DNA from: Phycisphaerae bacterium RAS1
GTDB lineage: Bacteria; Planctomycetota; Phycisphaerae; UBA1845; Fen-1342
DNA length: 64,000 nt
Assembly: GCA_007859745.1 (NCBI GenBank)
Contig: SMLU01000001.1
Coordinates: 2,666,001-2,730,000, forward strand
Direction of reading: 5' to 3'
The translations under genes and the position numbers were made by a program. Under the pieces are notes generated by a model, which was given only the letters and a program-made list of their open reading frames with translations, ran no database searches and was not told the DNA's origin. Shown here one piece after another: positions 1 through 2,707 of the stretch; position 1 is the stretch's first letter; every line of letters begins with the position of its first letter.

Positions 1-481
1 CCACGCGCGGCAGATCGGCGACAACCAGTCGTACCTGTTCATCCGCAACTCGCTCAAGAAAACCGCCACGATCAAGAAACTGCTCGAGCGCCAACTGCTG
101 GCGGTGAAGAACGCCCTGCTCATCAAGCGCCAGGCCGAGGCCTCGGCCGACTTCGCCTCCGCCATGAACCTCATGGCCGGCGAAGTCAGCAAGCTCTACG
201 GCGAGACGGACCTGACCAAGACGCAGATGCAGTGGGAAAAGGCGATGATGCAGTCGCAGAGCATGGAGGAACGCATGCAGATGTTCCTCGACTCGGTCGA
301 GCAGGGCGCCGCGGCGGACGTCTCGGCGACGCCGGTCGAGGCCATCAGCGATGAAGACATCGATCGCATGCTCGCGGCGGAGGAGCAGGTGGAGCAGGCG
401 AAGGAGACGGCGCAGATGAGCGATCTGCGGGCGGAATTGGCGAAGCTGAAGGGGGAGGGCGGGGCGAAGGAGACGAAGTGA
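1..481 (+). CDS. ESCRT-III (Snf7/CHMP)-like protein, C-terminal 159 residues
   Basis: The frame is open from base 2, so the start lies before the window; it ends at TGA 479-481. The product is almost entirely helical and charged. Its layout resembles eukaryotic CHMP/Vps2-type ESCRT-III: a basic segment with an IRNSLKK motif followed by a long helix (visible residues about 10-65), a Met-rich helix with WEKAMMQSQSMEERM (about 78-100), an acidic short helix with ISDEDIDRML, and a last amphipathic helix DLRAELAKLKG (141-151). That last helix fits the MIM1 spacing (acidic, Leu, Leu, Leu, Lys) used by Vps2/Vps24/CHMP1 to bind Vps4, except that the usual Arg is Glu. ESCRT-III proteins polymerise on membranes to remodel them. 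The assignment is by remembered pattern, not by search; a generic coiled-coil protein or a PspA relative are the alternatives. Any Vps4-like ATPase would have to lie outside this window. The last 24 codons recur at 1273-1344. Confidence 0.55.
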   Translation, partial: HARQIGDNQSYLFIRNSLKKTATIKKLLERQLLAVKNALLIKRQAEASADFASAMNLMAGEVSKLYGETDLTKTQMQWEKAMMQSQSMEERMQMFLDSVEQGAAADVSATPVEAISDEDIDRMLAAEEQVEQAKETAQMSDLRAELAKLKGEGGAKETK

Positions 482-722
482 GGCGTGCGGGCGGGATTCA
501 AGGTGCGCAAGGTGCGCAAATCTTGAGAGGCCTAATTGCGCACCTTCGGCGGACGGGTGAGAAAACGGCCGAATTATCAGGCCCTGTATGGCGAATTCGG
601 GATGGCTGCGCATCTTGAACCCCCTTGGGCGGCGCGGCGGGCGCGGCCCGGAGGGGGATTGTAGCTGGCAAGAATAGGAAAACCAGGCGATGTCGACGGC
701 TCGGATTTGATCGAGGACGTAA

Positions 723-956
723 ATGCCGACGATCGCGAGAATCGGCCCGTACCGGATATACTTCTTCAGTCTCGTGGTGAACCGCCGCATGTTCACGTGG
801 ATCGCGATGACAGTACGGCCAAGTTCTGGCTCGATCCGGTCGCGCCGGCGTATACGATCGGGTTTCGCGCGAAAGAGCTTCGCGACATTCGGCGGCCAGC
901 ACGCGACCGAGTGGATGGAGCTGTGGAATGACAACTTCGGCCCCCAGGCCCGGTGA
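723..956 (+). pseudogene. DUF4160-family protein with two compensating frameshifts
   Basis: DUF4160 proteins are about 80 residues and usually sit just upstream of DUF2442 genes in toxin-antitoxin-like pairs; their biochemical role is not established. Frame 0 from ATG 723, behind a good GAGGA Shine-Dalgarno at 713-717, gives the family's opening MPTIARIGPYRIYFFS. Near base 768-775 the family sequence jumps to the other frame, which encodes RGEPPHVHVDRDDSTAKFWLD and then KELRDIRR. Near base 890-900 it returns to frame 0 for the ending WMELWNDNFG, and stops at TGA 954-956. One missing base and one compensating change explain this. Either the gene is dead or there are two assembly errors. It overlaps the DUF2442 start by 29 bases, the normal arrangement for the pair. 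Confidence 0.7.
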
Positions 957-1200
957 GCGCGTCGCCGACGTGCGCTTCGATGACGACTCGATGAGCGTCG
1001 ACCTGACCGACGGCCGCACGATTACTGTACCGCTGGCGTGGTATCCGCGGCTGCTCGACGCGACGCCGCAGCAGCGTCAGAACTGGCAGCGCTGCGGGGG
1101 CGGGTTCGGGATCCACTGGCCGGAGATTGACGAGGATCTGAGCACGCAGGGTCTGCTCGAAGGAGTTCCCGCCCCGCGCCGGCCGGAAGCGGCGAGGTAA
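928..1200 (+). CDS. DUF2442 domain protein
   Basis: Ninety residues. The core is the DUF2442 pattern: VADVRFDDDSMSVDLTDGR, then a PLAWYPRL motif and a GFGIHWPEIDEDLS ending, so the domain is complete (about residues 10-77) with a short disordered tail. DUF2442 proteins pair with DUF4160 and are proposed antitoxin or DNA-binding partners; this is family-level knowledge, not visible in the sequence. The ATG lies inside the 3' end of the frameshifted DUF4160 gene, implying translational coupling before that gene broke. The pair lies between the two copies of the ESCRT-like gene's 3' end. Confidence 0.85.
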   Translation: MTTSAPRPGERVADVRFDDDSMSVDLTDGRTITVPLAWYPRLLDATPQQRQNWQRCGGGFGIHWPEIDEDLSTQGLLEGVPAPRRPEAAR

Positions 1201-1539
1201 TGGGCCGGCGCTTGCAGCGGTCGATCAGCGCAAGCCAGTGATTGGCGCGCGGGCGGCGAGCACGTGCGTCCGGCGCAGATGAGCGACTTGCGGGCGGAAC
1301 TGGCGAAGCTGAAGGGCGAGGGCGGGGCGAAGGAGACGAAATAACCGCGTTGAATTGGTAGCGTCGGGCTTCTGTGGCCGACGGCGTTTTGGCTTGAAAG
1401 TGCAGAGCAGCGGCACTACGTGGAGCGGACTTGGAGCATGACCAGCACCGCCCATCCGCACGGGCGGTAGGGCATCGCTATTCTCTCGAGAGCAGCAGTG
1501 TTTGGACACATAGTCCGTGTATTGTAAGAGCCCCATACC
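1201..1539. other. Intergenic stretch with tail copy and one GTAG hairpin
   Basis: Apart from the duplicated gene tail (1273-1344), the stretch contains one REP-like unit at about 1357-1387: GTAG, stem CGTCGGG, loop, stem GCCGACG. It is the same family as the paired copy at 57080-57155. The remainder, including an AT-richer part near 1480-1535 that may hold the promoter of the next gene, shows no clear feature. Confidence 0.6.
1273..1344 (+). pseudogene. Second copy of the last 24 codons of the ESCRT-III-like gene
   Basis: These 72 bases match 410-481, the last 23 codons plus stop of the first gene. There are six codon differences, and all are silent: GAT/GAC, CTG/TTG, TTG/CTG, GGG/GGC, AAG/AAA and stop TGA/TAA. 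Homology begins sharply at 1273; upstream sequence is unrelated and no open frame leads into it. The fragment therefore comes from a protein-coding gene that diverged under selection and then lost its 5' part, or whose 3' end was replaced. It encodes the MIM1-like helix. Confidence 0.85.
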
Positions 1540-2186: not shown

Positions 2187-2480
2187 TTACAGCCGGCGCT
2201 TCCATCCGCCCGGTCGCCGGCTGGAATGGGAAATCAGCAGGACGACCACCGCGTCGTTTTCTACAAGGTAGTATGCCTTGTACGGAAATCTCCGGAGCAG
2301 CACGCGGCGGACGTCGGCTGCAACGCGACGCGCCGCCAGCGGCCGCTCGCACGCGGCGAACAGCGCCCGCTCCACTTCCAGGATGAACTCTCGCCCCAGT
2401 CCGGGCCGCCGCCGCTCGTACCACTCGAAGGCGTCGCGCAGGTCGCTCCGAACCTCGACGCGGAACACGAGCCGATGCAT
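2187..2480 (-). CDS. ParE/RelE-superfamily toxin
   Basis: Ninety-seven residues from ATG 2480. The family pattern is clear: RSDLRDAFEWYERRRPGLG near residue 10, then FILEVERAL, DVRRVLLRRFPYKAYYLVE, and VLLISHSSRRPGGW at the end. ParE toxins poison DNA gyrase, while RelE relatives cleave mRNA at the ribosome; this sequence type (WYE..RPGLG, RFPY..YY) is the ParE-like branch. The start is set by an ATGA overlap with the stop of the upstream antitoxin gene. A longer start at 2519 would run through that gene and is unlikely. Confidence 0.88.
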   Translation of the reverse strand: MHRLVFRVEVRSDLRDAFEWYERRRPGLGREFILEVERALFAACERPLAARRVAADVRRVLLRRFPYKAYYLVENDAVVVLLISHSSRRPGGWKRRL

Positions 2481-2707
2481 CAGGAACGACCGAGGATTTC
2501 GGATTTCAATTCGTCCCACGGGATCACGGCCCGCGGGTCGCGGCGATGGGCTGCCAGGCGCTCTTCGAGCATCCGCCGGTCATCCGCCGACAGGCCGACG
2601 GCGTCCGGCAGGGCGGCGACGCTGTCCCAGATGTCCTGTGCGAGTTCGATGCGATCGTCGATGGACATCTTCAGCGTGTCAGCCACGGTGACGCGTTCGG
2701 GTTTCAT
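2480..2707 (-). CDS. Addiction-module antitoxin component (PF09720-like)
   Basis: Seventy-five residues from ATG 2707 to a TGA that overlaps the toxin ATG. The sequence (LKMSIDDRIELAQDIWDSVA, then LSADDRRMLEERLAAHRRDP) matches the short 'putative addiction module component' family, which has a helical N-terminus and a C-terminal toxin-binding tail (IPWDELKSEILG). It should neutralise the downstream ParE-like toxin and repress the operon, as related modules do. The longer reading frame extending to 3160 is not credible because it crosses the repeat at 2781-2942. Confidence 0.8.
   Translation of the reverse strand: MKPERVTVADTLKMSIDDRIELAQDIWDSVAALPDAVGLSADDRRMLEERLAAHRRDPRAVIPWDELKSEILGRS

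Follow-up and report, generated by a model that had tools for sequence, protein, structure and literature searches.

Displaced ends of an ESCRT-III-like gene in Planctomycetota and their probable origin in one-sided recombination with DNA of related strains

The 3' end of an ESCRT-III-like gene occurs twice in the window analysed here (the whole stretch of 64,000 nucleotides), once at the end of the intact gene and once beyond an insert carrying a dhiTA-like toxin-antitoxin pair (Table 1). Across Planctomycetota, 7 of 92 distinct gene copies have a displaced 3' end that reaches the stop codon, 0.5-3.2 kb downstream, and the cargo between the duplicated tails mostly differs from case to case. 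The displaced tail probably arose when DNA of a related strain, carrying its own version of the gene end together with the dhiTA-like pair, entered by one-sided homologous recombination.

The two tail copies in the window have an identical translation of 23 residues plus stop (AQMSDLRAELAKLKGEGGAKETK) and match at 66 of 72 nucleotides. All six codon differences (GAT/GAC, CTG/TTG, TTG/CTG, GGG/GGC, AAG/AAA, and TGA/TAA) are synonymous, which bears out the initial annotation, where a 23-residue tail duplicated with silent differences only had been described. Homology is lost sharply at either edge of the copies. If both copies had been drifting freely, the probability that all six differences are synonymous would be 1e-4 to 6e-4, and with one copy always constrained and the other drifting it would be 0.003-0.009. 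These values, together with the excess of synonymous differences in other genomes (see below), agree with the suggestion that selection had acted on both ends before one of them lost its gene, as the differences mostly arose under selection. No significant RNA structure was detected at either of the two window junctions. An assembly error is an unlikely source of the duplication, because the tail pair lies within a 3.42-Mb contig (the planctomycete genome has 5.5 Mb) and the pattern is repeated in six other genomes. Just downstream of the displaced tail, genes for a ParE-like toxin and an addiction-module antitoxin (PF09720/TIGR02574) are located on the minus strand (window positions 2187-2707).

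Table 1. Features of the duplicated gene end in the window, and displaced tails in Planctomycetota with their cargo
Feature	Location	Strand	Evidence or cargo
3' part of ESCRT-III-like gene, putative MIM1-like C-terminal helix at its end	1..481	+	CHMP3 profile match, Foldseek
Tail copy 1 (3' terminus of the intact gene), stop TGA	410..481	+	sequence comparison
Dispersed genome repeat, immediately 3' of the stop of tail copy 1	482..557		79-82% identity among copies
Broken DUF4160 gene, toxin of dhiTA-like pair	723..956	+	PF13711 E=9.8e-9, shifted frame
Intact DUF2442 gene, antitoxin of dhiTA-like pair	928..1200	+	PF10387 E=3.4e-25
Tail copy 2 (displaced), 23 residues identical to those of copy 1, stop TAA	1273..1344	+	sequence comparison
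Short dispersed genome repeat, ~30 nt, after tail copy 2	1358..1390		repeat search
Displaced tail	window		DUF4160/DUF2442
Displaced tail	G069/L232		204 nt; 372-aa secreted-looking protein
Displaced tail	G046/L129		DUF433 + DUF5615
Displaced tail	G106/L231		DUF433 + DUF5615, plus a further 2.2-kb insert with sulfatase-like gene
Displaced tail	G013/L104		AbiEii-like nucleotidyltransferase
Displaced tail	G059/L123		putative antitoxin + PIN
Displaced tail	G044/L126		small membrane protein

The gene upstream of the duplicated tail appears, from sequence and structure comparisons, to encode a conserved ESCRT-III-like protein. It is 203 aa long, with the start 131 bp upstream of the window, and 40 of the 199 genomes in a phylum-wide sample contain the gene. 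No significant Pfam or NCBIfam match was obtained; a profile built from 29 relatives had human CHMP3 as its sole match in the PDB (E=0.007). The predicted structure consists of four long helices (pLDDT 71), and a Foldseek search with this model ranked CHMP2A-CHMP3 first (E=0.11), CdvB and Vipp1 also being among the first matches, with weak E-values. The C-terminal helix contains a conserved LRAELxxLK, which we take to be a MIM1-like motif.

A Vps4-like AAA ATPase gene lies at most 9 kb downstream of the ESCRT-III-like gene in 63 of 89 loci and is the downstream partner in most relatives with a contig of sufficient length; the ancestral order is the ESCRT-III-like gene followed by the adjacent ATPase gene. 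Genes of the two kinds adjoin each other across Planctomycetota (represented by L005:5870-6481 with L037:6437-7555, and relatives). The partner has a Pfam AAA match (E=4.9e-41), with Vps4_C above the cut-off, and in structure comparison archaeal Vps4 (Z 29.6, rmsd 2.7, 266 aligned residues) was tied with p97 and FIGL-1. Its N-terminus forms a three-helix region in the predicted model; no MIT domain was matched by Pfam or PDB sequence searches, and none appeared in the structure comparison, which barely tests the N-terminus. In the window's genome, the Vps4-like ATPase is encoded on a different contig from the ESCRT-III-like gene, and the locus has therefore been rearranged further. By reading only, an IS110-like transposase was recognized just upstream of this ATPase gene (L134:1-900; G000:C2, upstream of 466312).

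DUF4160 and DUF2442 have toxin and antitoxin roles, respectively, in dhiTA-like pairs (PMC8198452, PMC12724237). On a Thermus plasmid, a construct without the second ORF (DUF2442) yielded no transformants, whereas one without the first ORF did (PMC12724237), a pattern with which an antitoxin role of DUF2442 is consistent. As in the dhiTA type II system of Dickeya dadantii (PMC8198452) and in the Thermus plasmid pair (PMC12724237), both domains are present in the window in matching order and adjoining; in contrast to dhiTA, the reading frame of the toxin is broken. The presence of the two domains in the insert, as initially annotated, is confirmed. The DUF2442 gene is intact; that of DUF4160 has its start and end in one frame and its conserved core in another. 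A broken toxin next to an intact antitoxin is ordinary decay. ORF translations and Pfam searches of the insert revealed neither an integrase nor a transposase. Either tail is followed by a repeat typical of the genome: within the 0.83 Mb of it that was searched, the repeat after the first tail has two further copies and the one after the second has over a dozen. The former repeat is possibly an intergenic family; it contains GGTGCGCAA motifs, and another copy occurs soon after the stop codon of a different ORF in the same genome.

Across the seven cases, the duplicated tails are ~57-204 nt long, and their starts, four within 80 bp and six within 111 bp of the stop, are clustered more tightly than expected for random junctions. 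The tails in G046 and G106 have both cargo and post-stop bases in common and may represent one ancestral event. A weak match in another locus (L131) proved to be noise, being positioned inside the ATPase gene. A control of approximately 1,850 other ORFs, taken from the same loci and from 0.83 Mb of the genome containing the window, yielded no case in which a tail alone was duplicated on both sides of an unrelated insert (Fisher p=5e-10 against 7 of 92, the test having been designed after the pattern was noticed). In the own-genome part of this control, which covers 0.83 Mb with approximate ORF calling that missed the window's own gene, the matches reaching a stop comprised two tandem paralogues of full length, an immediate tandem repeat and a tandem duplication of 240 bp; an unrelated insert was not enclosed by any of them.

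The space between the ESCRT-III-like and ATPase genes is a variable slot in Planctomycetota, rich in toxin-antitoxin-like genes compared to control genes. The spacing at 63 loci is at most 60 nt in 14, 61-300 nt in 11 and above 300 nt in 38, and the genes within the gap vary between loci. Among the matches listed for 86 slot ORFs there were HEPN (11), NTP_transf_2 (6), DUF433 (3), AbiEii (3), DUF5615 (2), DUF2442 (2), DUF4160 (1), HepT-like (1), and PIN (1) families, and no integrase family; among those listed for 86 control ORFs located past the ATPase region, none of the toxin-antitoxin-like families of the slot occurred (both lists comprise the 25 commonest families). A scan of other copies of the gene for an attached DUF4160/DUF2442 unit, proposed together with the initial annotation, located such a pair immediately 3' of the ESCRT-III-like gene in one locus (L072). 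The comparison of syntenic regions, proposed there as well, drew on genomes from other genera than that of the window and gave a mixed outcome: insert-free states with adjacent genes exist in the clade, but an intact second paralogue was not found, and neither a donor nor an empty-site haplotype of the window locus was among these genomes. Elsewhere in the genome that contains the window, a DUF5615-like frame is located between two full-length DUF433 genes in tandem (L140:5574-6689; G000:C1).

In two genomes, the start of the ATPase gene rather than the end of the ESCRT-III-like gene is duplicated in the gap. In G032 (L124), a copy of the initial 128 nt of the ATPase gene (94% identity) directly follows the ESCRT-III-like gene and precedes a nucleotidyltransferase/HEPN pair and the full ATPase gene. 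In G091 (L234), the ATPase start is present as a 55-nt copy (95% identity) that a HEPN gene overlaps, and the full ATPase gene begins approximately 270 nt later.

We infer the following course of events, including the one-sided recombination step itself, the relatedness of the donor and the identity of tail copy 2 as the end of the resident gene. Related strains would carry differing accessory genes, often toxin-antitoxin modules, in the slot. Incoming DNA from such a strain, comprising the gene end and the dhiTA-like pair, would pair by homology with the resident ESCRT-III-like gene, and the unmatched other end of the donor would join illegitimately just inside the last ~72 bp of the resident gene. 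The product would be an intact gene followed by the new cargo and, as a relic, by the 72 bp that formerly ended the resident gene. The same model could yield both kinds of products, a join inside the resident gene end giving a displaced tail and a join at the ATPase start giving a displaced head; head copies such as those in L124 and L234 are expected when it is on the ATPase side that the homologous anchor, or the end of the donor fragment, is located. Homology-facilitated illegitimate recombination has been proposed for the Vibrio type VI immunity arrays and Rhs loci (PMC5361080).

Several observations agree with this course. First, the old 3' end lies beyond non-homologous cargo in the 7 of 92 gene copies, and the mirror-image products are present. 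Second, numbers of synonymous and nonsynonymous codon differences between tail copies are 6/0, 8/2, 6/1 and 8/6; because they are mostly synonymous, most of the divergence between the tails accumulated when both still had a function, in the simplest case in separate strains. Third, the second tail is nearer to the first than to the tail of any other genome in five of the seven cases (G106 being a clear exception and L104 a near tie), which points to close donors. The genome-typical repeats behind both window tails and the DUF4160/DUF2442 pair in the slot of L072 also fit. Less in line with this course are the clustering of tail starts near the stop and the junctions (5' edges of the tails), where clear microhomology was not found. 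The earlier proposal that incoming DNA supplied a new set of last codons and shifted the old end aside fits this pattern, including the synonymous differences accumulated under selection. The accompanying idea of a dedicated mobile unit of ~0.8 kb aimed at the 3' end of the gene is disfavoured, because the edges of both flanking genes are duplicated, the boundaries vary, the cargo changes, and no integrase or transposase was recognized among the genes of the duplicated inserts.

A related possibility, which we regard as unlikely, is a non-autonomous cassette that uses the 3' end of the gene as its attachment site, depends on an integrase encoded elsewhere and supplies final codons of its own that restore the frame, in the manner of islands at tRNA genes. 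Such a cassette could explain why the tail duplications end at the stop codon or a few bases off it, why many of them begin near the LRAEL codons, and why insert sizes are often 0.5-1.4 kb. However, the 5' boundaries vary, the cargo is mostly unrelated with no common element ends seen, the tails are mostly lineage-specific, two genomes have a duplicated ATPase head, and the listed Pfam matches of slot ORFs lack integrases. Less likely still is a tandem duplication of the gene and its cargo, with later deletion of the second gene down to its tail. It accounts for the synonymous differences, and in L126 the genes after either tail are distantly related (25% identity), but apart from this case the cargo on the two sides of the tails is not related, and the scenario would need several steps that recurred in six or seven lineages and had a counterpart at the ATPase. 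Two full-length copies occur in none of the genomes searched, every positive genome having a single full-length match, and the deletion between tandem paralogues offered earlier as the alternative is disfavoured on this ground. Transposition with a long target-site duplication and later drift, suggested by the direct repeats flanking the insert, is highly improbable, as duplications of ~57-204 bp far exceed those usual for transposons, the window insert has no transposase, and the window differences are synonymous and not neutral.

One-sided recombination, the preferred reading, places the locus beside several known systems. In the type VI effector-immunity arrays of Vibrio cholerae (PMC5361080) and in Rhs/CDI loci, a module that enters beside a conserved anchor likewise shifts the former 3' end, together with its neighbour, further downstream, and arrays lengthen step by step; there, however, the effector or toxin end itself varies, whereas here the anchor, apparently a conserved ESCRT-III-like protein, is unchanged and the cargo consists of distinct genes within the gap of an operon, frequently toxin-antitoxin-like ones. 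Genomic islands at the 3' ends of genes and tRNAs also duplicate the gene end and keep the reading frame, but the present inserts have no integrase and no constant core or boundary, and the 5' end of the neighbouring gene is duplicated in the sister cases. The routes by which solitary toxin-antitoxin genes move between genomes are mostly unknown, and the locus offers repeated footprints of one likely route, exchange via conserved flanking genes, with displaced ends as relics.

The gene pair itself appears to resemble the ESCRT-III and Vps4 systems of archaea and eukaryotes in its predicted ESCRT-III-like helices, its MIM1-like tail and the adjacent gene for a Vps4-like AAA ATPase, the N-terminus of which is predicted to form three helices. 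It is, however, bacterial, and a 2024 survey reported that Vps4/ESCRT components were not found in bacteria (PMC10936438); no description of a bacterial ESCRT-III-like/Vps4-like pair was found in our literature search, the coverage of which was incomplete. With an ESCRT-III-like gene paired with a Vps4-like ATPase gene in bacteria, the origin and function of such pairs become testable. That the planctomycetal genes form a genuine ESCRT-III/Vps4 operon with a MIM1-like tail, the internal slot of which is a dedicated exchange site functionally tying toxin-antitoxin or defence modules to membrane remodelling, is conceivable though rather doubtful. In two loci (L111:16716-18306 and L231:8246-10024), slot inserts in different families share a recurring gene pair, one protein starting with ..PLVEAIFEIR.. 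or ..PITEAIIDLR.. and the other having a ..QGDI or QGDL.. motif; this pair is perhaps another exchanged module.
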